From: Collinsella aerofaciens ATCC 25986
Lineage (GTDB): Bacteria > Actinomycetota > Coriobacteriia > Coriobacteriales > Coriobacteriaceae
Length of the DNA: 64,000 nt
Assembly: GCF_010509075.1 (NCBI RefSeq)
Contig: NZ_CP048433.1
Location: forward strand, 310,001 to 374,000
Direction of reading: 5' to 3'
Shown here: positions 2,986 to 61,990 of the stretch, in pieces
Layout of the letters: the number at the start of each line of letters is the position of its first letter
How positions within the stretch are numbered: the stretch's first letter is position 1
The notes under the pieces: generated by a model
Seen by the model: only the letters and a program-made list of their open reading frames with translations
What the model was told of the DNA's origin: nothing
Database searches by the model: none
Program-made: the position numbers and the translations under genes

Positions 2986-3060
2986 ATGCAGTTCGTAAAG
3001 ATCATCACCACTGCAGACAATGCCATCCGACGCCAGCGCGCAATTTCCCGACGACGATAA
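2986..3060 (+). CDS. Arginine-rich leader peptide upstream of argG
   Basis: A 24-residue ORF with a strong ribosome-binding site (GAAAGGAGAGG, 5 nt before the ATG) and a TAA stop. Six of its last ten residues are arginine, in the order RRQRAISRRR, ending in three consecutive CGA codons. It lies 205 nt upstream of argG on the same strand. A short peptide with a run of codons for the pathway's end product is the signature of attenuation by ribosome stalling, as in the his, trp and leu leaders. Downstream are overlapping hairpins (3068-3112) and a later hairpin followed by five T (3125-3171). I infer arginyl-tRNA-dependent control of argG; it is not shown. Confidence 0.6.
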   Translation: MQFVKIITTADNAIRRQRAISRRR

Positions 3061-8125: not shown

Positions 8126-9445
8126 ATGCCTACCGATTCCCTTCGTGATGCCGCGTTTTGCGATGTTTTGAACCGCGAGCTTGTCTGTGCACTCGGCTGC
8201 ACCGAGCCCATTGCCGTTGCCTATGCAGCAGCGCTGGCGAGCCAGACGCTCGGTTACGAGCCCGATCATATGGATGTTGCCTGCTCGGGCAACATCATCA
8301 AGAACGTTAAGAGCGTGACCGTGCCCAACTCGGGCGGTATGCACGGTATTGAAGCCGCGGCCGTGCTGGGTGCCGTGGGCGGCGACGCCAAAAGCGCGCT
8401 CGAGGTGCTCGAGAGCGTTAACGATGAAGACCGTGCTCGCGTGGCCGAGCTCCTCGCCGACGCCGACTACTGCGATGTATCGCTTGTCGAGGGTGTGCCC
8501 AACCTCTACATCAAGGTGACTGCCACGGCCGGGGGCCATACCGCGGTCGTCGAGATTACCGACCACCACACCAATGTCACGTGCCATACCCTCGACGGTA
8601 TTCCGGTGTGCGGCAAGTCGGCGGGGGAGTGTGCCGCCTGCGCCGAGCGCGTCGTGGCCGAGCGGGCGGCAGATAACGCCGACACGCCCATGTCGATCGA
8701 GACCATCATCGACTTTATCGAGGACGGTGACATTGAGGACGCCCGTGCTGCCGTTGAGCGTCAGATTGAGCTGAATGGCGCAATCAGTGCCGAGGGCCTT
8801 GCGCACGCTTGGGGCGCCGAGGTGGGTCGTACGCTGCTGGGTGCTCGTGCCGATGACGTCGCCTGCCGTGCCCGTGCCCGTGCGGCCGCCGGGTCCGACG
8901 CCCGCATGAACGGCTGCGCGCTGCCGGTCGCCATTGTGTGCGGCTCGGGCAATCAGGGCATTACCTGCGCATTGCCCGTCATGGAGTATGCCGAGTACCT
9001 GCGTTGCGACCACGAGCGCCTGGTGCGCGCCGTGATGCTGTCCGATCTTATCGCCGTGCATATCAAGAGCTATATTGGTGCGCTCTCGGCGTTTTGCGGT
9101 GCTATTTGCGCCGCGTGCGGCGCCGGCGCCGCGATTACCTGGCTGTGCGGTGGCACGCGCGAGCAGATTGGCGCGACGGTCTCGAACACGCTCGGTAACG
9201 TGGGCGGCATCGTGTGCGACGGCGCCAAAGCGAGCTGTGCCGCCAAGATCTCGGCTGCCGTCGATGCGGCGATTCTGGGCCATGATATGGCCATGCAGGG
9301 TCGCGGCTTCCGCGCCGGCGAGGGCCTGATCCAAGATACCGTTGAGCAGACAATCGCCAGTATGGGCTACGTAGGCCGCGTAGGCATGAAGGACACCGAC
9401 GTCGAGATCCTCAACATCATGATCGGCAAAACCCAGGTGTGCTAG
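8126..9445 (+). CDS. L-cysteine desulfidase / UPF0597 (CyuA-like) protein
   Basis: A predicted iron-sulfur enzyme that breaks L-cysteine into pyruvate, ammonia and sulfide in the cytoplasm. 439 residues. The conserved N-terminal ALGCTEPIA segment is near residues 22-30, and family signatures CSGNIIKNV, SGNQGITC and GNVGGIVCDGAKASC follow. Several conserved cysteines fit the proposed [4Fe-4S] site. AGGAGA precedes the ATG. It stands alone, with a hairpin directly after the stop and a hairpin repeat element further on. The related serine dehydratase alpha chain is less likely given the ALGCTEP start. Confidence 0.85.
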   Translation: MPTDSLRDAAFCDVLNRELVCALGCTEPIAVAYAAALASQTLGYEPDHMDVACSGNIIKNVKSVTVPNSGGMHGIEAAAVLGAVGGDAKSALEVLESVNDEDRARVAELLADADYCDVSLVEGVPNLYIKVTATAGGHTAVVEITDHHTNVTCHTLDGIPVCGKSAGECAACAERVVAERAADNADTPMSIETIIDFIEDGDIEDARAAVERQIELNGAISAEGLAHAWGAEVGRTLLGARADDVACRARARAAAGSDARMNGCALPVAIVCGSGNQGITCALPVMEYAEYLRCDHERLVRAVMLSDLIAVHIKSYIGALSAFCGAICAACGAGAAITWLCGGTREQIGATVSNTLGNVGGIVCDGAKASCAAKISAAVDAAILGHDMAMQGRGFRAGEGLIQDTVEQTIASMGYVGRVGMKDTDVEILNIMIGKTQVC

Positions 9446-9472
9446 TTACGCGGTTTTACCAAACCGCGTAAC
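9445..9472 (+). terminator. Perfect 12-bp hairpin at the end of the cysteine desulfidase gene
   Basis: Arms 9445-9456 and 9461-9472 begin on the last base of the stop codon, with a 4-nt loop. There is no T-run. It may protect the mRNA 3' end or act together with the repeat element that follows. Confidence 0.5.
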
Positions 9473-9480
9473 CAGTCGAC

Positions 9481-9587
9481 GCTGCAAACGCCCCCAAGCG
9501 GCAATCTGCCTTTCAATCGTCGGGCATGGCCAGAAGGCCTATGCCCTCCTCTTTCAAGGCACATTGCTCGCTTAGGGGCATTTTCGC
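9481..9587. repeat. Structured intergenic repeat, copy 1
   Basis: A ~107-nt imperfect palindrome. The outer stem pairs 9481-9505 with 9562-9587. Inner words TGCCTTTCAA and CTTTCAAGGCA pair across the element, and a terminal hairpin has arms GGGCATGGCC and GGCCTATGCCC with a 4-nt AGAA loop. Three related copies occur in this window. No coding potential is seen. Confidence 0.75.
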
Positions 9588-9634
9588 TGACTTGTGCTCA
9601 ACCTGCGGCGATATTTGGTTTGGAGCGAGGGGTC

Positions 9635-10393
9635 CTACGACAGTTCGTCGGCTACTTGGTGTTCGTAGAAGGCTTCTACTACGGCGTTGAATTCGCGGGC
9701 GAAGTCTTCCATGGTTCCGCGCCAGGTGGCTTGGCTGGGCTTGCCTTGGCCCACAAAGGCGGTTTGGATGCCGCAATCGGGGGACGGGAAGTCGCGTTTG
9801 GGATCGTTGCCCACCATAAGGACCTCGTGTGGCTCGAGTCCCATCACCTGAAGCTGCTCTAGATAGTAGGTGGCATCGGGCTTGCAGCGGGTGGTGTTTC
9901 CCATGTGCGTGACGAGCTCAAAGGGGGCGTCGGCCAGGTCGCCCCAGCCCATGCGGCACTCGATGGCCCCTTGGGGAAAGCTGGGGTTGGTAAAGAGCGC
10001 GCAACGCAGCCCTGCGTCCTGTACGGCCTGGAGCGCGGCGTGTGCGCCCGGCATGGCGTGGGCGTTAATGACATCGTCGTTCTTGTACGGAAGAACTTCG
10101 CGGTCATAGTAGGTAAACGCCTCGTAGATGAGGGGATCGGAGAGGCGGATCCCGCATCGGCGCTCGACCTCTTCTTGGTAAAACTCAAGATTGGTGCGGT
10201 TGTCCGTGCCGCTGCGGCGATTGGCGTTGAGGTCGACTAGGATGGTGCCGAGGCGTGCCATCGTGCCACCGCGGCTGCGGCGCCCGATATCCGCGAGCAT
10301 CGAAGAGACATCCTTAAAATAGCGAAGGATGAACGCGTTGAGGTTGATGCTGAGAAGCGTCTCGTCCATATCGAAAACGACTGCTTTGAGCAC
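9635..10393 (-). CDS. HAD-family hydrolase
   Basis: A 252-residue predicted phosphatase of the haloacid dehalogenase superfamily. Motif I is FDMDETLLS near residues 7-15, motif II an ALFTNPS segment, and motif IV is MVGNDPKRDF. I start at GTG 10393 because GAGAAAGG lies just upstream and motif I then sits at the usual distance from the N-terminus; the longer frame adds 57 residues of non-conserved, AT-rich translation. It is divergent from rpsA. The substrate is unknown. Confidence 0.8.
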   Translation of the reverse strand: MLKAVVFDMDETLLSINLNAFILRYFKDVSSMLADIGRRSRGGTMARLGTILVDLNANRRSGTDNRTNLEFYQEEVERRCGIRLSDPLIYEAFTYYDREVLPYKNDDVINAHAMPGAHAALQAVQDAGLRCALFTNPSFPQGAIECRMGWGDLADAPFELVTHMGNTTRCKPDATYYLEQLQVMGLEPHEVLMVGNDPKRDFPSPDCGIQTAFVGQGKPSQATWRGTMEDFAREFNAVVEAFYEHQVADELS

Positions 10394-10680
10394 GCGGGCA
10401 CCTTTCTCGAAAAATCGATCTAGAATCGTTGGCTCCGGATACTTTACCCCAAAGCCGAATGCCTGGCTGGTTATCGTCAAGTTGCGGAGACGTGTGTTCA
10501 TAAGATTACGAAAAAGTCTCCACACGAGTAAAAAATCGCAGTTCACGCTTGAAATCGAACTCATTTCCCCGTAACCTATACGAACGTGATTGCATAAGCG
10601 TCACATTAGTATCTGTCGGCTCCCGAGTGTTCCTAAACGTTGTGTGCTTGTCGCACCCTTCTGTAGGTCCTAGCAATCGG

Positions 10681-10708
10681 GGCCCCGTAGTTCGAAAGGG
10701 GTCCACCT
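10681..10708 (+). promoter_or_regulatory. Hairpin sequestering the rpsA ribosome-binding site
   Basis: GGCCCC at 10681-10686 can pair with GGGGTC at 10698-10703, which contains the Shine-Dalgarno bases of rpsA. S1 is known to control its own translation in other bacteria, so this could be a translational switch. It is inference from pairing only. Other than candidate promoter sequence, I see nothing more in 10394-10680. Confidence 0.4.
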
Positions 10709-11875
10709 TTGAGTGAGATTCAGAACTCGTCCATTTTCTCTCTTGACGATGTCAACGAGGAGGAGATGAACAACCTCATCGACGGTACGATTACCGACTT
10801 TGATGAGGGCGATCTCGTTAACGGCACTGTCGTTAAGATCGAGCATGACGAGGTGCTCGTTGACATCGGATTCAAGTCCGAGGGCGTTATCCCGGTCCGC
10901 GAGCTGTCCATCCGCAAGGACGCTAACCCTGCAGACATCGTTGCACTCGGTGATCCCATCGAGGCTCTGGTTCTCCAGAAGGAGGACAAGGACGGTCGTC
11001 TGGTCCTGTCCAAGAAGCGTGCCGAGTACGAGCGTGCTTGGAACCGCATCGAGGAGAAGTTCAACTCCGGCGAGAACGTCGAGGGCGAGGTTATCGAGGT
11101 TGTCAAGGGCGGCCTGATCCTCGACATCGGCCTGCGTGGCTTCCTGCCTGCTTCCCTCGTCGACCTCCGTCGCGTCAAGGACCTCACCTCTTACATGGGC
11201 ACCCGCATCGAGGCCCGCGTCATCGAGATGGACCGTAACCGCAACAACGTCGTCCTCTCCCGTCGCGTCGTGCTCGAGGAGTCCCGTAAGGCCGAGCGCT
11301 CCGAGATCCTGTCCAAGCTCAAGTCTGGTATGCGTCTCCAGGGCACCGTTTCCTCCATCGTCGACTTCGGCGCCTTCGTCGACCTCGGCGGTATCGACGG
11401 CCTCATCCACATCTCCGAGCTCTCCTGGAACCACGTCAACCATCCTTCCGAGGTTGTCAAGGTCGGCCAGGAGGTCGAGGTCGAGGTTCTCGACGTCGAT
11501 CTCAACCGCGAGCGCATCTCCCTGGGTCTCAAGCAGACCACCGAGGATCCGTGGCGCGCACTGGTCAAGAAGTACCCCGTCGGCGCTATCGTCGAGGGCA
11601 CTGTGACCAAGCTTGTCCCGTTTGGCGCTTTCGTCGACCTGGGCGAGGGCATCGAGGGCCTGGTGCACATCTCCGAGATGGCCAACAAGCACGTCGACCA
11701 GCCTTCTCAGGTCACCCACGTGGGCGACAAGGTTCAGGTCAAGGTCATGGAGATCGACCTCGACCGTCGTCGTATCTCTCTGTCCATGAAGTCCGCTGCT
11801 GAGACTCTGGGCGTCGAGATCGAGGTTACCCCGCTTCCTTCCGAGAAGAAGGACGAGGAGACCGACGCCGAGTAA
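10709..11875 (+). CDS. rpsA: 30S ribosomal protein S1
   Basis: Binds mRNA on the small ribosomal subunit. 388 residues with four S1 RNA-binding repeats, at approximately residues 30-105, 115-190, 200-275 and 285-360; the last two carry the DFGAFVDLG and PFGAFVDLG cores. Four repeats are usual in Actinobacteria, against six in E. coli. The start is TTG 10709, supported by GAAAGGGG upstream and by the absence of any ATG that preserves the acidic N-terminus. The C-terminal tail is acidic. A strong terminator follows. Confidence 0.95.
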   Translation: MSEIQNSSIFSLDDVNEEEMNNLIDGTITDFDEGDLVNGTVVKIEHDEVLVDIGFKSEGVIPVRELSIRKDANPADIVALGDPIEALVLQKEDKDGRLVLSKKRAEYERAWNRIEEKFNSGENVEGEVIEVVKGGLILDIGLRGFLPASLVDLRRVKDLTSYMGTRIEARVIEMDRNRNNVVLSRRVVLEESRKAERSEILSKLKSGMRLQGTVSSIVDFGAFVDLGGIDGLIHISELSWNHVNHPSEVVKVGQEVEVEVLDVDLNRERISLGLKQTTEDPWRALVKKYPVGAIVEGTVTKLVPFGAFVDLGEGIEGLVHISEMANKHVDQPSQVTHVGDKVQVKVMEIDLDRRRISLSMKSAAETLGVEIEVTPLPSEKKDEETDAE

Positions 11876-11901
11876 ATCGGTTTGACGATCACTTGTTTTA
11901 A

Positions 11902-11933
11902 GGGATCCGTCCGCAATGGACGGGTCCCTTTTT
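11902..11933 (+). terminator. Terminator of rpsA
   Basis: An 11-bp stem (11902-11912 with 11918-11928, one mismatch) followed by TTTTT. Confidence 0.85.
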
Positions 11934-12200
11934 GCTTTCGCTGCTGATGCACGCGATGCTACCCGGGCTGTCCACAGGCTATTGGGTTGTCGGTGAATGA
12001 AAAAATGCCGACATCCCGCCTCGGGGAGGAGGCGGGAACGCACCGAGTAGACGGAGGGGTGCGGAGCGCGGTCGCGTCTCGACTGACGACATTGCCCATC
12101 GACAACCCTATTGTACTGCATGGCGTGGTTCTTGGTTTATCGTGTCGAACGCTTGTGTTGTGCCATTGCCTGCGGCAACGGTGTGCTACACTCTTGCACT

Positions 12201-12562
12201 GCTGAGTGGACCAGACGGTCGCGCGATGTGCTGTTTGCAGTACGCGTGAGGAAAGTCCGGGCTCCAGAGGGCGGGATGCCGGCTAACGGCCGGGCGGAGT
12301 GATCCGACGGAAAGCGCCGCAGAAAAGAAGACTCCCACCTGCGCCGCAAGGCGTAAAGGGAAAAGCTGAAACGGTGGTGTAAGAGACCACCAGCGTCGTG
12401 GCAACACGGCGGCTTGGCAAGCCCCATCCGGAGCAAGCGCGAATAGGAACGCTATGGGCCGGCCCGGTCCGCGTTCGGGTAGCGTGCGTGGAGCTGCACG
12501 GTAACGTGCAGACAAGATAAATGACCGTTCACGACAGAACCCGGCTTATAGGCCCACTCAGC
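12201..12562 (+). ncRNA. rnpB: RNase P RNA
   Basis: Catalytic RNA that trims tRNA 5' leaders. The universally conserved GAGGAAAGTCCGGGCTCC core segment is at about 12248-12265, and the matching ACAGAACCCGGCTTA segment is near 12534-12548. The ends are set by helix P1, where 12201-12209 pairs with 12554-12562. It is a type A layout from the order of conserved blocks. A possible promoter (TTGCCT at 12166, TACACT at 12187) lies just upstream. 11934-12165 holds no gene that I can see. Confidence 0.95.
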
Positions 12563-12573
12563 ACTTTGTTGAC

Positions 12574-12681
12574 GCTGCGAACCCGTCAGCGCGGCAATCT
12601 GCCTTTCAAGCCTTCGGGCATGACCATAAGGTCAATGCCCTCGTCTTTCAAGGCACCTTGCTCGCGCTGACGGGTTCTCGC
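12574..12681. repeat. Structured intergenic repeat, copy 2
   Basis: The same architecture as copy 1, lying right after the RNase P RNA. The outer stem pairs CCCGTCAGCGCG with CGCGCTGACGGG, where copy 1 has a different but also complementary pair. The same TGCCTTTCAA / CTTTCAAGGCA core is present, and the inner hairpin has a GGGCATGACC arm and an ATAA loop. It may end the rnpB transcript. Confidence 0.75.
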
Positions 12682-12789
12682 TTTCGTTTACGGAATCATC
12701 GGTGTTGCCGTTCTATTTACTGGGATTAACGGTACGGTCTTTGCCGTATTATTGAGGCTGTTTGTTGCTTTGCTTGTTGTTGAGGGGCT

Positions 12790-13428
12790 TTGTTGGACAG
12801 CTATTTTACTCTGCAATCGAATATTGAGGCTTCGGGCGAGTTTGTGGACCGCAAGAGCCGGTTTATTGCCCAGCTGGTCCATATTGAGTCCGAGGATGAG
12901 GCGAATGCCTTTATCGAGATGGTTCGCAAGCGTCATTACGATGCTCGACACAATGTTCCCGCGTGGATTTTGGTCGATGGGCGCGAGCGCCAGAGCGATG
13001 ATGGTGAGCCGAGCCGCACGAGCGGTATGCCGACGCTCGAGGTGCTGCGCGGCGCGGGGCTCAAAAATGTTTGCTGCGTAGTGACGCGCTATTTTGGTGG
13101 CACGCTGTTAGGTCCTGGTGGCTTGGTGCGCGCATATACCGCGGCGACGCAGGCGGCGGTGGCAGCTGCTCGGGAGGCTGGGCAGATCGTCGAGATGACG
13201 AGCGTCGTGCCCGTTGACGTGCATGTGGCCTATCCGCAGTATGAGCAGGTGCTTCGTTTGGCGCAGGATTCGGGTGCCAAGGTTTCGGATACCGATTACG
13301 CGGATACCGTGACGATTCATTTGGTGTTTAAAGCGGGGGAGCAGGAGCCGTTTTGCGCAAAGATGCGCGAGCTTATGGCGGGGCGCGAGGAGATTGAGGT
13401 CGGCGCTCCCAAATTTGCCGAGTTCTAA
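12790..13428 (+). CDS. YigZ/IMPACT-family protein (UPF0029)
   Basis: A 212-residue conserved protein of unknown biochemical role. Family members have an N-terminal domain related to eukaryotic IMPACT and a C-terminal DUF1949 ferredoxin-like domain. The YigZ signature region, with DGEPSRTSGMP near residues 77-87 and RYFGGTLLGPGGLVRAY near 101-117, is clear. I keep TTG 12790, preceded by a GGGG-containing purine stretch; no ATG lies nearby that keeps the conserved start. It stands alone between the repeat element and a bidirectional terminator. Confidence 0.85.
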   Translation: MLDSYFTLQSNIEASGEFVDRKSRFIAQLVHIESEDEANAFIEMVRKRHYDARHNVPAWILVDGRERQSDDGEPSRTSGMPTLEVLRGAGLKNVCCVVTRYFGGTLLGPGGLVRAYTAATQAAVAAAREAGQIVEMTSVVPVDVHVAYPQYEQVLRLAQDSGAKVSDTDYADTVTIHLVFKAGEQEPFCAKMRELMAGREEIEVGAPKFAEF

Positions 13429-17724: not shown

Positions 17725-18105
17725 ATGGATGAGAACAAGATGGGATGGCGTGAGTATGCGCACTATGCCGAGATGTCGGTCGAGGAGTTGGCGCGCGATT
17801 GCGAGGTGCAGGTGTTTCGCGCGACGGGTCCGGGCGGCCAGGGTGTGAACACGACGGACTCGGCGGTGCGCATGAAGCATGGGCCCACGGGGATTGTCGT
17901 GACGGCGCGCGAGAGCCGTAGCCAGTTTCAGAATCGCAGCTGCTGTTTGCGTAAGCTGAGGGCAGAGCTTGAGCGTCGTGGCCGTCCACCGCGCCGACGC
18001 GTAAAGACCAAGGTTCCCCAGCGCTCTCGCCAGCGCAGACTCAACGACAAACACTTCAACGCCATTAAAAAGGCCAACCGTCGCAAACCGGGCAGCGACG
18101 AATGA
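17725..18105 (+). CDS. RF-1 domain protein (ArfB/peptidyl-tRNA hydrolase-like)
   Basis: A 126-residue protein with the catalytic domain of peptide release factors but no codon-recognition domains. The GGQ motif is in [10 protein letters not shown] near residues 34-43. The C-terminus is very basic ([16 protein letters not shown]), as in ArfB/YaeJ, which inserts a basic tail in the empty mRNA channel of stalled ribosomes. Start at ATG 17725 with GGGGAGG upstream. A ribosome-rescue role is inferred from architecture. Confidence 0.75.
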
Positions 18106-26665: not shown

Positions 26666-27949
26666 ATGGCTGAAGAATTTGATTTCCATCCGATGTGGGA
26701 GAGCCTCGGCATGAATCTTGCCGACCACGATATGCTGCTGGGCGCCGTGGGCCAGATGTACGGCGATATGTTCCTGACGCAGAACAATCGCCCCAAGTCC
26801 ACGTCCTACCTGGACTTTGTGGCCACCAACATCCATAGCGGTCGCATTAAGGAGATGCTCGACAAGAAGGAGGCCGGCGAGGCTACCAAAATCGTCGGTT
26901 CGTTCTGCGTCTACGTGCCCGAGGAGATTGTGCTCGCCTGCGACGGCATTCCTGTTGGCCTGTGCTCGGGTGCCGATTGGGCAACCGATAAGGTCGAGGA
27001 GCACCTGCCGCGCAACACCTGTCCGCTTATCAAGAGCTTTGCCGGCTTTAAGCTGGGCGAGGTCTGCCCCTACATTGAGTCGAGTGACCTGGTGGTAGGC
27101 GAGAACACCTGCGATGGCAAGAAGAAGGCCTACGAGTTCTTTGCCACGCAAAAGAACATGTACGTCATGGATATTCCCAACGTGCACGACGAGTCGACGC
27201 TCGTGACCTGGAAGGCCGAGGTTAAAAAGCTTGCCGCCAAGATCGAGGAAGAGTGCGGCGTCACGATTACGCCTGAGCGCCTGAAGGCTGCCATCCACGC
27301 CGTCAACGGGAAGCGTCGCGCCCTGCAGCGTCTGGCTGCGACCCGCGCTGCCGATCCGGCGCCCATCAGCGGTCTCGACAGCCTGCTGACCGTTCAGGCC
27401 GCCTTTATGGATGACACGCCGCGTCTGACCGGCGCCATCAACGAAATGGCGGCTGAGTGCGAGCAGCGCGTTGAGGCCGGCGAGGGTGTGGCGCCCAAGG
27501 GCACCAAGCGCATCCTGTACACCGGTACGCCCATGGCCGTGCCCAACTGGAAGCTGTTCAACCTCATCGAGAAGGCCGGCGGCGTCGTGGTGGGCGAGGA
27601 GTCCTGCACGGGCTCGCGCTACTACAAGGACCTGGTCGACGAGTCCGGTGAGACGGTTGACGAGATGCTCGACGCCATCGCCGAGCGCTACTTTAAGATC
27701 AACTGCGCCGTCTTTACGCCCAACCACCAGCGTATGAAGGACATTGTCCAGATGGCCAAGGACCTGCATGCCGACGGCATCGTCGACGTGGCCTTGCAGT
27801 TCTGCACGCTCTACGAGATGGAGTCGTTTGCCGTGGAGAAGGCCGCCGAAGAGGCCGGCATCCCGTTTATGCACATCACGACCGACTACGCCGGCGAGGA
27901 TGCAGGCCAACTGCAAACCAGGATTGAGGCTTTCTTGGAAACCATTTAG
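26666..27949 (+). CDS. Double-cubane / 2-hydroxyacyl-CoA dehydratase family iron-sulfur protein (HgdB-like), paralogue 1
   Basis: A 427-residue iron-sulfur protein of the family that includes 2-hydroxyacyl-CoA dehydratase subunits, benzoyl-CoA reductase subunits and the double-cubane cluster proteins. Conserved cysteine segments are RNTCPLIKS near residue 118, [21 protein letters not shown] near 150 and [10 protein letters not shown] near 312. The lack of separate alpha and beta subunits, and the gene next to an activating ATPase, fit the double-cubane type, which makes very low-potential electrons. The start follows GAGAGGGGA. It is the first of three linked genes; the substrate is unknown. 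Confidence 0.75.
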
Positions 27950-27964
27950 GGCTATCCGGTCCAG

Positions 27965-28066
27965 CGGCTTCCCCAAGCACCCGATCTTGCCGTTCAAACC
28001 ATCGCTTGCATACCAAAGTACGCGGCGCTCCTCTTTCACGGCAACCTCGGGCACCTGGGAAAGCCG
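27965..28066. repeat. Structured intergenic repeat, copy 3
   Basis: The outer stem pairs CGGCTTCCCCA with TGGGAAAGCCG, then CCCGATCTTGCCG with CGGCAACCTCGGG. The core words TTCAAACCATCG and CTCCTCTTTC match copies 1, 2 and 4. The inner hairpin is GCATAC-CAAA-GTACGC. It fills most of the gap between the two paralogous genes. Confidence 0.75.
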
Positions 28067-28103
28067 TTTCCTTGGTTGGTTAAAAGGTTTGTTAAGGAGT
28101 TAT

Positions 28104-29267
28104 ATGTCGGAAAATATTGAGCAGCCGTTGCCGTCCACGTTTGAGGAGTTCAACGAGCAACGCAAGGCGGCGTTTATTCGCGTCAAGGATTATAAGCAGG
28201 CGGGTAATCGCCTGGTCGGCTTTTTGTGCAGCTATACGCCGCTCGAGATTATCGATGCTGCGGGGGCCGCAAGTGTCGCTCTGTGTGGTACGTCTGACGA
28301 GGTGATTCCTGAGGCCGAGAAGGTGCTGCCGGCAAACCTCTGCCCGCTCATCAAGTCGACGTACGGTTTTGCCTATTCGCAAAAGTGCCCGTTTACGTAC
28401 TTTAGCGACATGATCATCGGCGAGACCACCTGCGACGGCAAGAAGAAGATGTACGAGCTGCTCAACGAACTCAAGCGCACGCACATTCTGCATCTTCCGC
28501 AGGGTCGCGATCGCGCCTACGAGCGTGAGGGCTGGTACGAGGAGTGCCGCCTGCTCAAGGAGGAGCTCGAGAACTTCTACGGCATCGCGATTACCGACGA
28601 TGATCTGCGCGCTGCCGTCCGTCGTCGCAACCGCTTGCGTGCGGCCCAGCTCGAGATGTTTGCGCTGCAGGCCAACCAGCCGGCGGCCATGAGCGGCGTC
28701 GACCTGATGAGCACCATGTTTGCCGGTACGTTTAGCTTTGATATCGAGGCCTATACGCAGCAGCTGGAGCAAAAGGTTGTCAAGCTGCGCGAGGCCTACG
28801 ACGCGAGCGAGCGCCCGGTTGCGGCGGATGCCAAGCGCATTCTGATCACCGGCTGCCCGGTGGGCGGCGTGATCAACAAGATCGGTCGCACCATCGAGTC
28901 CAACGGTGGTGTGGTCGTGTGCATGGACGACTGCTCGGGCGAGCGCACGGCGGCCATGATGATCGACCCGGAGGCTCCCGACATCCTTCGCGCCATCGCC
29001 GACCGTTACCTGGATATCAACTGCTCGGTCATGACGCCCAACGACGGTCGTATGGAAAACACGCTGGCCATGTGCGAGAAGTATCACGTCGATGGCGTAG
29101 TGGAGAGCGTGCTCCAGGCGTGCCACACCTTTAACGTGGAGAGTGCGCGCATGCAGGAGGCTGTCGAGGGTGCGGGTATTCCGTATATGAAGATCGAGAC
29201 CGACTACAGCAACGGTGACATGGGCCAGATCGAGACCCGCATCGCCGCCTTCATCGAAACCCTCTAG
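28104..29267 (+). CDS. Double-cubane / 2-hydroxyacyl-CoA dehydratase family iron-sulfur protein (HgdB-like), paralogue 2
   Basis: A 387-residue paralogue of the gene before it, sharing the [28 protein letters not shown] and DDCSGER cysteine segments, and ending with the same [14 protein letters not shown]-type C-terminus. ATG 28104 follows AAGGAGTTAT; the frame is open upstream but unrelated. Either the two proteins are independent homodimers with different substrates, or they form a heterodimer; the equal spacing of motifs allows both. The stop codon lies within the outer stem of the following repeat element. Confidence 0.75.
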
Positions 29268-29370
29268 CTTCCTCAGGCACCGGATCTTGCTCCTCAAACC
29301 GTCGCTTGCGTACCCAATGTACGCTGCGCTCCTCTTTCGGGGCAATCTCCGGCACCTGAGAAACCTAGAG
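29262..29370. repeat. Structured intergenic repeat, copy 4 (contains a stop codon)
   Basis: The outer stem CTCTAGCTTCCTCAGG (29262 onward) pairs with a segment ending CCTGAGAAACCTAGAG at 29370. The first bases are the last codon and TAG stop of the preceding gene. The core ATCTTGC / CTCCTCTTTC words and the inner hairpin GCGTAC-CCAAT-GTACGC match copy 3. Confidence 0.75.
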
Positions 29371-29422: not shown

Positions 29423-30187
29423 ATGATAGGGATCGGGATCGATATCGGGTCTACGGCGGCTAAGGCTGCTGTGGTCGATGGAGGGGGTTCGGTGGCGTGG
29501 ACGTGCGTGCAGCCAACCGGGTTCTCCTCGGTCGATGCTTCCGAGCGGCTGCGCGAGGCACTGGCAGCGGCGGGTTATGACGTGGCTGCCGACGACGTGC
29601 GCGTGGTCGCGACTGGCTACGGCCGTGTTGCCGTGCTCTATGCGCACAAGGTCGTGACCGAGATCACCTGCCACGGCACCGGTGCCGTGCGCCTGTTTGG
29701 CGATCACGGCACGGTGATTGACGTGGGCGGCCAGGACACCAAGGTCATTCAGCTTAAAAGTGGCCGCGTGGCCAAGTTCGCCATGAACGACAAGTGCGCT
29801 GCCGGTACGGGGCGCTTTTTGGAGATCATGGCCGACCGTCTGGGTATTTCCCAACAGCAGATGGCCGACCTTGCGCGTTCCGGTGAGCCCACCAAGATCA
29901 GCAGCATGTGCACGGTGTTTGCCGAAAGCGAGGTTATCAGCCTGATCGGCCGCGGTGAGCCGCGCGAGAACATTGCGCGTGGCGTGATCGACAGCGTGGT
30001 CTCGCGCGTGGCGACCATGGCCGGGCAGGCCGCGGGCGCCCCGTACTACCTGACGGGAGGCCTGTGCGAGAACGCCTTCGTGGTGGAGCGGTTGGGCGAG
30101 CTACTGAGGTCGCCGGTGACCACCTCGCCCCAGGCTCGCTTTGCCGGAGCGATCGGTGCGGCGATTCGCGCACAGGCGCTCAATTAA
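29423..30187 (+). CDS. Activator ATPase of the BadF/HgdC family
   Basis: A 254-residue ASKHA-fold ATPase that passes electrons, driven by ATP hydrolysis, to a partner iron-sulfur enzyme. The N-terminal IGIDIGSTAAKAA phosphate loop is near residues 4-16, DVGGQDTKVI near 99-108, and the cluster-bridging cysteines in NDKCAAGTGRF and SSMCTVFAES, which bind one [4Fe-4S] between two subunits. It follows the two double-cubane-type genes and directly precedes selD. Confidence 0.88.
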   Translation: MIGIGIDIGSTAAKAAVVDGGGSVAWTCVQPTGFSSVDASERLREALAAAGYDVAADDVRVVATGYGRVAVLYAHKVVTEITCHGTGAVRLFGDHGTVIDVGGQDTKVIQLKSGRVAKFAMNDKCAAGTGRFLEIMADRLGISQQQMADLARSGEPTKISSMCTVFAESEVISLIGRGEPRENIARGVIDSVVSRVATMAGQAAGAPYYLTGGLCENAFVVERLGELLRSPVTTSPQARFAGAIGAAIRAQALN

Positions 30188-30257: not shown

Positions 30258-31307
30258 ATGGCTGACGATCAGATTAAGCTCACGTCTATGACGGCCGCGA
30301 GCGGTTGAGCCGCTAAGTTGGCTCCTGGAGCCCTCGCCCAGGTCCTGGGCGACTTGCCAAATGTGCATAACGACAACTTGCTCGTGGGGTTCGATACCTC
30401 CGACGATGCGAGCGTCTTCCGCGTAGGGGAGAACCTGGGGCTTGTGCAGTCCATCGACTTCTTTCCACCGATGGTCGACGATCCGTTCCTGTTTGGCCAG
30501 ATTGCCGCGGCAAATTCGCTGTCGGACATCTACGCCATGGGCGGGCGGCCGAGCCATGCCATGAACCTACTCTGCATACCCAGTTGTCTGGGCATCGAGG
30601 TTGCCGGTCAGATTCTGGCGGGCGGCGCCGACAAGTGCGTCGAGGCCGGCTGCTCCATCGCGGGCGGCCACACCATCAACGACGACGAGCCCAAGTACGG
30701 CCTGTCCGTGAGCGGGTTTGTCGCGCTTGACCGTATGCTCGCCAACAGCGGCGCGCGCGTGGGCGATGCGTTGCTGCTGACCAAGGCGGTTGGCTCGGGC
30801 ATCATCACCACGGCCATTAAGGGCGAGCTCATCGAGCAGGACGAGGCCGCAGCCGTGTTTGACTCGATGCGTACCCTCAACGAGGCCCCGATTCGTCTGG
30901 CCGAGGGACTCGAGCTTCACGGCTGTACTGACATTACGGGCTTTGGTCTGATCGGGCATGCGTGCGAGATGGCCGAGGGCTCGGGCGTGCAGGTTGAGCT
31001 TGCGTCGGGGGCGGTGCCGCTCTTTGACCAGGTGCTCGACATGGCGCGTCTGGGCATTATCCCCGCGGGCTCCTACCGCAACCAGGACTTCTTTGGCCCG
31101 CGCGTGGCTGCCGACGAAGACCTGGAGCCGGGCATGCTGGATGCGCTGTACGATCCGCAGACGTCTGGTGGTTTGCTTATTGCGGCGCCCGCGAGGGATG
31201 TGGATGAGCTTGCGCGTCGCCTGGATGCCGAGGGGCGCATCGCCGCTGTCGTTGGTCGCGTGTGCGAGGCGGAGCCGGGCGGTCCTGCCGTCCGCGTTGT
31301 TCGCTAG
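30258..31307 (+). CDS. selD: Selenophosphate synthase with selenocysteine at the active site
   Basis: Makes selenophosphate, the selenium donor, from selenide and ATP. Reading from ATG 30258 (AGAGGAGG upstream) gives 349 residues with one in-frame TGA at 30306-30308, residue 17, in the context SGUAAKLAPG; E. coli SelD has Cys at this catalytic site. The codons on both sides of the TGA encode conserved SelD sequence, so it is a selenocysteine codon, not a broken gene. Later motifs: DDASVF and the GGHTINDDEPKYG loop. Without recoding the ORF appears to start at 30318. It lies upstream of yedF. Confidence 0.93.
30306..30340 (+). promoter_or_regulatory. Selenocysteine UGA and candidate bacterial SECIS in selD
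   Basis: The TGA at 30306 is followed, 12 nt on, by a perfect GGCTC-CTG-GAGCC hairpin (30320-30332), in the position expected for a SelB-binding element. The apical loop is small and less typical than that of fdhF, so the exact structure is uncertain. Confidence 0.5.
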
Positions 31308-35153: not shown

Positions 35154-35224
35154 TAAGTTGCGGTGAAATAGTTCCTGGATTAGCCGCAAAAGCTGTTATT
35201 CAGGAACTATTTCACCGCAACTTA
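35154..35224. repeat. 71-bp palindromic element A
   Basis: Perfect 24-bp arms (35154-35177 and 35201-35224) around a 23-nt loop. It lies just downstream of the AbiEi-like gene and after the tRNA terminator. The arms and part of the outer flank recur in element B. Confidence 0.9.
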
Positions 35225-36465: not shown

Positions 36466-36534
36466 AAGTTGCGGTGAAATAGTTCCTGAAAGGCTCGAAT
36501 AAGCCTAAATCCAGGAACTATTTCACCGCAACTT
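36466..36534. repeat. Palindromic element B (69-71 bp)
   Basis: Perfect 23-bp arms (36466-36488 and 36512-36534) around a 23-nt loop that holds its own hairpin AGGCT-CGAATA-AGCCT. It lies 14 nt past the stop of the PIN gene. In 36294-36465 I see only a small AGTGCC/GGCACT hairpin. Confidence 0.9.
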
Positions 36535-36548
36535 AGGAGGGGATGGGG

Positions 36549-58933: not shown

Positions 58934-59030
58934 GGGAACGGATGGGCTCCGGTGGGCTCCGCGGTCCTCAAAACCGTTGCGAGGCGTGCAAAACGTCTTG
59001 GATGTGTTCGATTCACATACGTTCCCGCCA
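58934..59030 (+). tRNA. selC: Selenocysteine tRNA (anticodon TCA)
   Basis: A 97-nt tRNA with acceptor GGGAACG/CGTTCCC, anticodon loop CCTCAAA (anticodon TCA, pairs with UGA), a long variable arm (AGGCGT/ACGTCT) and T loop TTCGATT. GCCA ends the gene. The long D and variable arms are features of bacterial tRNA-Sec. The eighth acceptor pair appears mismatched (G-A). It directly follows selB and would complete a selA-selB-selC cluster. Confidence 0.93.
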
Positions 59031-61919: not shown

Positions 61920-61990
61920 TAACTTGCGGTGATATACGGACTGTTTTGCGTTCCAGAACGACTAATCAGTCCGTATATCACCGCAAGTTA
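61920..61990. repeat. 71-bp palindromic element C
   Basis: Perfect 24-bp arms (61920-61943 and 61967-61990) around a 23-nt loop holding CGTTC-CA-GAACG. Outer arm bases TTGCGGTGA-ATA match elements A and B; the inner seven bases differ but remain self-complementary. It lies after the gdhA terminator. Confidence 0.9.

Follow-up and report, generated by a model that had tools for sequence, protein, structure and literature searches.

Integron attC sites are located directly behind stop codons, keep a fixed fold on variable sequence and are folded from the bottom strand. Repetitive extragenic palindromic (REP) sequences and bacterial interspersed mosaic elements (BIMEs) of Escherichia coli are dispersed extragenic palindromes, some of them directly behind stop codons; in the available part of PMC12306157, 446 of 4,072 predicted E. 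coli REPs are reported within 15 nt of a stop codon, and REPs so placed are described as stalling ribosomes. GTAG- and CGTC-tagged REPs are intergenic palindromic repeats of 20–40 bp with unpaired end tags and (in the CGTC type) stems of 8–9 bp; CGTC families also occur without a dedicated transposase (PMC3733652, the part available). Here we analyse a dispersed hairpin element of Collinsella aerofaciens ATCC 25986, examining its copies in a stretch of 64,000 nt (the window, i.e. the whole stretch of DNA analysed) and in the whole genome of the strain (its own genome below).

Copies of the element share one strongly covarying hairpin architecture, are dispersed and turn over among close relatives. 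They are located directly behind a stop codon or the end of an RNA gene, mostly in one orientation. Cores of one class of copies (class I) often contain a predicted terminator-like hairpin in the direction of the gene, while those of the other (class II) rarely do. We consider it probable (roughly 0.6) that the copies belong to an order-wide family of large palindromic elements, similar to REPs and to miniature inverted-repeat transposable elements (MITEs), that is used as gene-end punctuation.

The element resembles REP-like dispersed palindromes in the broad sense, having many extragenic copies that are polymorphic between relatives. It differs from E. coli REP/BIME in its core of ∼107 nt with several conserved purine loops, to which a 28-nt hairpin (hairpin 1) and a linker are added, and in having no Y1 transposase gene next to it in the own genome. 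Unlike the short GTAG/CGTC REPs, it forms a unit of ∼170 nt, of which hairpin 1 makes up 28 nt; no constant GTAG was seen by eye, and CGTC occurs in the linker on the minus strand, whose sequence next to the big hairpin is GCAGCGTCGA. The available text of PMC3733652 does not mention Collinsella, Eggerthella, Slackia or Actinobacteria. With attC sites the element shares the place directly behind stop codons, the sequence-variable fixed fold and the folded bottom strand; it differs in being dispersed behind housekeeping genes, and no RYYYAAC...GTTRRRY ends were noticed by eye. With intrinsic (Rho-independent) terminators it shares a predicted hairpin with a T-rich run in the gene's direction (15 of 32 class I cores), yet its palindrome is much larger, the conserved strand is the opposite one, the copies have the identity of a dispersed family and class II is located mostly inside operons. 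The initial annotation of this DNA knew of no named family that corresponds to the element; Rfam, with nothing above threshold, agrees. The Rfam family RT-19 was rejected (26.3 bits versus a cut-off of 78.3; only the copy behind rnpB matches, with an alignment that spans the flank and is out of register). No description of the element was found in the literature, including the available text of PMC8040213, PMC3733652 and PMC12306157, with supplementary tables outside this coverage.

A dispersed hairpin family with compensatory changes

Pattern matching placed the core words that the initial annotation had reported as shared by 9481-9587 and 12574-12681 on the plus strand, TGCCTTTCAA at 9507 and 12600, and CTTTCAAGGCA..TTGC at 9551 and 12645. 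The reported GGGCAT...ATGCCC inner hairpins with tetraloops were found at 9522-9546 (loop AGAA) and 12616-12640 (loop ATAA). The outer stems, described as self-complementary in both copies, are perfect in the second; in the first, CCCCCAAGCG with CGCTTAGGGG has one C.A mismatch when read on the plus strand, replaced by a G.U pair when the minus strand is read. Folding of the two regions compared with dinucleotide shuffles gave z = -6.4 and -8.7, with 0 of 200 shuffles matching either.

The exact core pattern is present in five copies in the own genome, each 3' of a gene or of rnpB and in the same direction. A covariance model, R1, was built from these five copies; its search of the own genome produced 54 rows at E <= 10. 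Seven rows were opposite-strand repeats of listed places, one was a chance row (E = 8.8), and the row at 1351465 was rejected as an unrelated long hairpin on inspection by eye. Pruning left 45 copies, so that the further copies expected from the proposal of a dispersed element do exist. Four are inside the window (9481-9587, 12574-12681, 27962-28069 and 29262-29370).

The common architecture consists of a long outer stem, a 2x2 purine loop, 6–7 bp, a tandem G.A loop and an apical hairpin, mostly with a 4-nt loop. When single sequences from 46 places (1351465 included) were folded, the minus strand was the more stable in 45, the exception being 1584630; the conserved structure is on the strand opposite to the one first proposed. 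Mismatches C.A, C.U and C.C of the plus strand become G.U, G.A and G.G there, and the central loop on the structured strand, UUGAAAG..../....UUGAAAGG, has tandem G.A pairs. In a set of 119 copies, reduced to 105 by discarding duplicates, the minus-strand pairs include 228 G.U versus 58 A.C; the copies were gathered with a minus-strand model, so part of this bias may be circular, and the count of isolated mismatches is the fairer measure. After dereplication to 50 copies the isolated mismatches numbered G.U:A.C = 29:8 and 15:4 in two sequence groups (split by the word GGTGC and distinct from classes I and II). The structured strand is complementary to the one that codes for the preceding gene. 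Such a minus-strand structure is compatible with a function as folded DNA, or with selection that disfavours over-stable hairpins in the mRNA.

Compensating changes, on which the initial annotation had based its claim of a maintained structure, were confirmed by covariation tests in two sets of sequences. The five exact-core copies vary at both partners in 18 of 41 pairs (shuffle mean 8.6; none of 500 shuffles as high); one of the five covariation measures, further pair types, was reached by 3 of 500 shuffles. The second test concerned a single site, the pheS stop codon before pheT, for which we chose 31 sites of 58 pheS genomes (29 fetched, the own genome and a relative, G039). An element is present in 18 of these sites and absent from 13, as judged by eye. 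Seventeen occupied sites (L417 omitted) were aligned by sequence only, and the structure was predicted from that alignment. Of 508 cells 96.5% are paired, and double changes affect 16 of 30 pairs; none of 500 shuffles reached any of the five measures, including the double-change counts. Pairing drops to 30–48% when partners are slid by 1–3 columns, a control that flatters the structure, which was derived from the same alignment; kinship inflates the shuffle result, and the double changes remain. Two adjacent U.G/G.U pairs are each kept in 16 of 17 sequences.

Classes of element and their place behind genes

The features of the window that concern the element are as follows.

8126..9445, plus strand: gene abutting copy 1, the cysteine desulfidase (cdsA) of the initial annotation; Pfam PF03313, serine dehydratase alpha chain; stop codon TAG at 9443-9445
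9445..9472, plus strand: hairpin 1 of copy 1, GTTACGCGGTTTTACCAAACCGCGTAAC, which shares its first G with the TAG stop as the final base of that codon
9473..9485, plus strand: conserved linker CAGTCGACGCTGC between the hairpins of copy 1; its last five bases are the start of the model match
9481..9587, minus strand (structured strand): big hairpin of copy 1, class I, from folding and the R1 match
9522..9546, plus strand: apical hairpin of copy 1, GGGCATGGCC-AGAA-GGCCTATGCCC; the pyrimidine tract TCCTCTTTC is next in the gene's direction
9588..9612, plus strand: conserved class I tail of copy 1; CGCTGAC (9585-9591) shares bases with the end of the big hairpin and is followed by TTGTGCTCAACCTGCGG
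12203..12564, plus strand: rnpB, the class A RNase P RNA, with copy 2 directly after it (Rfam RF00010, 282 bits)
12574..12681, minus strand: big hairpin of copy 2, without hairpin 1; it begins 10 nt past the end of rnpB
12616..12640, plus strand: apical hairpin of copy 2, loop ATAA
27962..28069, minus strand: copy 3, class II, between the HGD-D genes 26666-27949 and about 28104-29267
29262..29370, minus strand: copy 4, class II, overlapping the TAG stop of the second HGD-D gene and preceding a BadF/BcrA-type ATPase gene (29423-30187)

Class labels, assigned by eye, divide the 45 own-genome copies into 32 of class I and 13 of class II. In the gene's direction a class I unit consists of the stop codon, hairpin 1 (GTTACGCGGTTTTACCAAACCGCGTAAC or a related sequence), a linker with GACGCTGC or a close variant at its end, the big hairpin, CGCTGAC and the tail. 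A short repeat like TAGTCATTGGGGACGTTCTTAAATGACTAGTC, resembling a separate REP, is seen behind some class I tails (e.g. G000:C1 near 932332, 1382374 and 1897361). A few class I copies are without hairpin 1 (e.g. behind rnpB, at 1217362 and at 1474042). One hairpin-1 sequence was matched within three mismatches at 15 places, 14 of them in listed copies; the 15th, at 1204125, leads a truncated copy. Class II copies are smaller, have no hairpin 1 and are mostly located between genes of the same direction, for example between pheS and pheT, as a tandem pair between cysS and rlmB, and at the HGD-D and BadF/BcrA-type genes of the window. Two class II copies, at 73728 and 1038905, are inverted. By gene calls from a crude periodicity score, which underlie all neighbour and orientation counts, 25 of 32 class I copies are followed either by a convergent gene (11) or by a same-direction gene >100 nt off (14).

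The placement of hairpin 1 was studied by a pattern scan of named genomes, which produced at least 120 loci; the 120 analysed contain 124 hairpins. We used the 98 hairpins with a linker and an upstream open frame of at least 60 codons. The 26 set aside include seemingly lone hairpins (L255, L289, L301, L305) and hairpins with no big hairpin of the family type (L258, L278, L294). For 86 of 98 of the matches listed, the start of hairpin 1 is between -1 and +9 nt relative to the stop codon, a register that is a further difference from E. coli REP/BIME; by the stop-proximal criterion used for E. coli REPs (<=15 nt), 88 of 98 qualify, at -1 to +14 nt. With alike gene ends merged, 44 of 49 of these matches are at -1 to +9 nt. 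The first 80 loci had given 55 of 65 at -1 to +9 nt and 57 of 65 at -1 to +14. Second copies of tandem pairs have hairpin 1 near 53 nt from the stop. For comparison, ordinary terminator-like hairpins in G039 begin 0–9 nt from the stop in 25 of 292 cases. In an annotated C. aerofaciens record the coding sequence of an M20 peptidase ends at 2999 and the element match starts at 3001. As to orientation, 30 of 37 copies in G039 are 3' of a same-direction gene, and the other seven may be gene-finder errors or real inversions.

Stop codons near the copies (61 TAG, 29 TAA and 8 TGA among the matches listed) compared with those of G039 (847, 689 and 202) show a somewhat increased share of TAG (p = 0.03), partly because the first G of hairpin 1 can complete the stop codon. 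TAG was rejected as a required insertion target: copies behind a tRNA gene, behind rnpB and at some non-stop sites are without it. A crude gene finder gives TAG as the commonest stop in G039 overall (847 of 1738 genes).

A terminator was one of the functions first suggested for the element. The core contains a predicted hairpin with a T-rich run in the gene's direction in 15 of 32 copies for class I and in 1 of 13 for class II. The class I antisense strand gave 0 of 32 (0 of 45 for all copies), and two controls of the same length gave 1 of 32 each (Fisher tests: strand, p = 7e-6; class, p = 0.016). A consensus scan of 9400-12800 found three terminator-like sites where 3.1 are expected, one of them weak and in copy 1. 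At the level of sequence the suggestion is supported for about half of class I and hardly for class II, and the scanned region has no excess of such sites. By these counts, class I resembles a module for gene ends that includes a terminator-like hairpin in about half of the copies, and class II an intercistronic module mostly without one. The ribosome stalling attributed to stop-proximal E. coli REPs is the nearest described effect.

Distribution and turnover

R1 matches are present in 36 of 39 sampled genomes of the genus (0 to 53 rows each) and in 57 of 197 genomes of the class: 28 of the same genus, 7 of the same family, 21 of the same order and 1 further. Among 296 sampled genomes of the phylum, 11 had matches, all within the class and none outside it. 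Matches in other families of the order were checked by folding 12 named loci from outside C. aerofaciens. The big hairpin was present in eight, namely in Gordonibacter sp. 28C (twice), Slackia equolifaciens, Candidatus Aphodovivens avistercoris, two uncultured Coriobacteriaceae, one metagenome-assembled genome of Eggerthellaceae and Collinsella tanakaei, and absent from four. The hairpin-1 pattern had no match in viral contigs, and blastn of copy 1 had none in phage records; the plasmid set contained one matching record, a 900-kb one of C. aerofaciens.

Presence and type of the element at a given site were compared between relatives by eye. For the stop of cdsA, 30 orthologous loci were cut from 39 matches: 10 are occupied, 9 are empty, 9 are unlike and without the element, and 2 are at contig ends. 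In empty sites the stop abuts the end of the convergent gene. Some loci carry a different big-hairpin type (L118), a different hairpin 1 (L119) or a nested pair (L111). Comparison of the own genome with G039 was possible at 32 of 45 sites, the other 13 having no clear counterpart or being rearranged or too far apart. Five of the 32 sites have the same type, 11 have a different, inverted or chimeric element, and 16 lack it or have it cut down, while the flanks are mostly 83–98% identical. On the 3' side of rnpB the element is present in the own genome, in G039 and in one of 11 further sites read; coordinates alone indicate it in at least 12 more genomes of the genus. Nested or tandem copies (L262, L300, L314, L334, L111) have a cut-off hairpin 1 with linker, followed ∼46–48 nt on by a complete element.

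That the family is mobile or recombines fast is shown by its empty sites, its nested copies and the swaps of type in place. This agrees with the initial suggestion of a mobile REP-like palindrome; the linked REP-associated transposase (RAYT) named as its companion was searched for in the own genome, and none adjoins a copy. Beyond that first description of the locus are the structured strand, the 28-nt leading hairpin, the link to the stop codon and the empty sites.

Weighing the explanations

Under the preferred reading of a REP/MITE-like family used as gene-end punctuation, the element would be a non-autonomous repeat. It would move, or be swapped, either in the form of folded single-stranded DNA (the purine-rich minus strand) or by recombination at hairpins. 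Copies would be kept where they are harmless or helpful, as transcribed punctuation of gene ends. Class I may serve as a terminator or 3' block, and class II as an intercistronic spacer or stabiliser beside the stop codon.

Several observations weigh against this reading. Three class I copies are within ∼55 nt of a following same-direction gene (4 of 32 are unclear), and in both Gordonibacter sp. 28C loci and in Slackia the element runs into the ribosome-binding site of the next gene, the class I copies being directly 5' of it; class I is therefore not confined to transcript ends. No terminator-like signal was found in 17 of 32 class I cores, and a separate downstream signal of this kind is present in 8 of 32 (2 of 13 in class II). 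With a wider window that includes hairpin 1 the class difference becomes 16 of 32 versus 3 of 13 and loses its significance (p = 0.18). Occupied cdsA sites carry ∼35 extra right-hand bases absent from other copies; some empty sites may therefore be deletions. Neither a target-site duplication nor a terminal inverted repeat recurs consistently across the cdsA pairs of empty and occupied sites: a clean repeated TAG occurs in L118 only, TAC or TAT in others, with no common 3' end. In-place type swaps may reflect gene conversion rather than transposition. No element is located beside the Y1 transposase genes of the own genome (coordinates of four; three loci read). Finally, conservation concerns the strand opposite to the mRNA, so that a purely mRNA-level role fits badly.

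One alternative is that the element is a purely cis-acting mRNA 3' element (a terminator or a stabiliser/translation modulator) selected gene by gene, its spread being old and its copies immobile. The tight link to stop codons, the orientation with the gene, the terminator-like class I cores, the compensatory change at the pheS site and the stalling reported for E. coli REPs <=15 nt from the stop (PMC12306157, in the part available) would all be expected of such an element. The conserved wobble pairs on the non-mRNA strand would not, nor would the absence from 13 of 31 pheS sites or the empty and type-swapped sites of relatives whose flanks are so similar, and we regard this alternative as unlikely.

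Strand asymmetry, with the structured strand complementing the coding strand, could also point to an attC-like DNA recombination site folded from the bottom strand, at which a putative enzyme would bind specifically to the purine-rich hairpin and catalyse the insertion or exchange of elements behind genes. The varied sequence on one fold, the place directly behind stops and the in-place swaps agree with this explanation. Integron membership was rejected, however, as no integron integrase was above the cut-off in the own genome (TIGR02249, 12 matches, the best with 71.6 bits versus 265); instead of forming arrayed cassettes, the copies are scattered, following housekeeping genes and rnpB, and no common crossover base was found. 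A site of this kind seems improbable to us.

A REP family driven by RAYT (a Y1 transposase) in the strict sense is the least plausible: Y1 transposase genes are present in 36 of 42 genomes of the genus, the number of RAYT-like genes (Y1 matches minus those below E 1e-30, taken as IS200 type) correlates with the count of R1 rows over 39 genomes (Spearman 0.45, p = 0.004) and the five genomes without a RAYT-like gene have 0–5 rows, but the correlation is gone among the 20 high-copy genomes, copy number is confounded with kinship, and RAYT linkage in the own genome was rejected since no R1 match is nearer than ∼4 kb to its four Y1 genes. The RAYT-like gene at G000:C1:673928-674254 is flanked by a repeat of its own, CATTGGGGACAGACTTACATGAGTG, which also speaks against this explanation.

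More speculatively, one might imagine an order-wide, strand-asymmetric folded-DNA system in which a putative enzyme acting on the folded bottom strand exchanges or inserts elements specifically behind stop codons; we hold this to be a rather slim possibility. If true, bacteria would swap whole gene-end modules (a terminator or an intercistronic insulator) as cassettes.

Short palindromes behind genes are common; the present element, from a genus common in the human gut, combines its size and internal architecture with an asymmetry between the strands and an almost constant distance from the stop codon. Relatives differ in the presence or type of the element at the same stop, so the effect of a gene-end hairpin on expression could be read from natural strain pairs. 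The strain differences also permit a search for the source of mobility, and annotation of Coriobacteriia genomes could mask or name these elements.

The window contains other repeats as well. A second dispersed hairpin family, AAGTTGCGGTGAAATAGTTCCTG...CAGGAACTATTTCACCGCAACTT, is present at 35155-35224, 36466-36535 and 61921-61990, with a half at 18105; the arms at 61921 are changed yet paired, and a similar hairpin is found near 227742 in the own genome. An open reading frame at 30318-31307 is selD-like (selenide, water dikinase; named from sequence), and a tRNA-Sec gene is located at 58934-59026. A perfect 31-nt inverted repeat is formed by 1747-1777 with 1842-1872, 64 nt apart.

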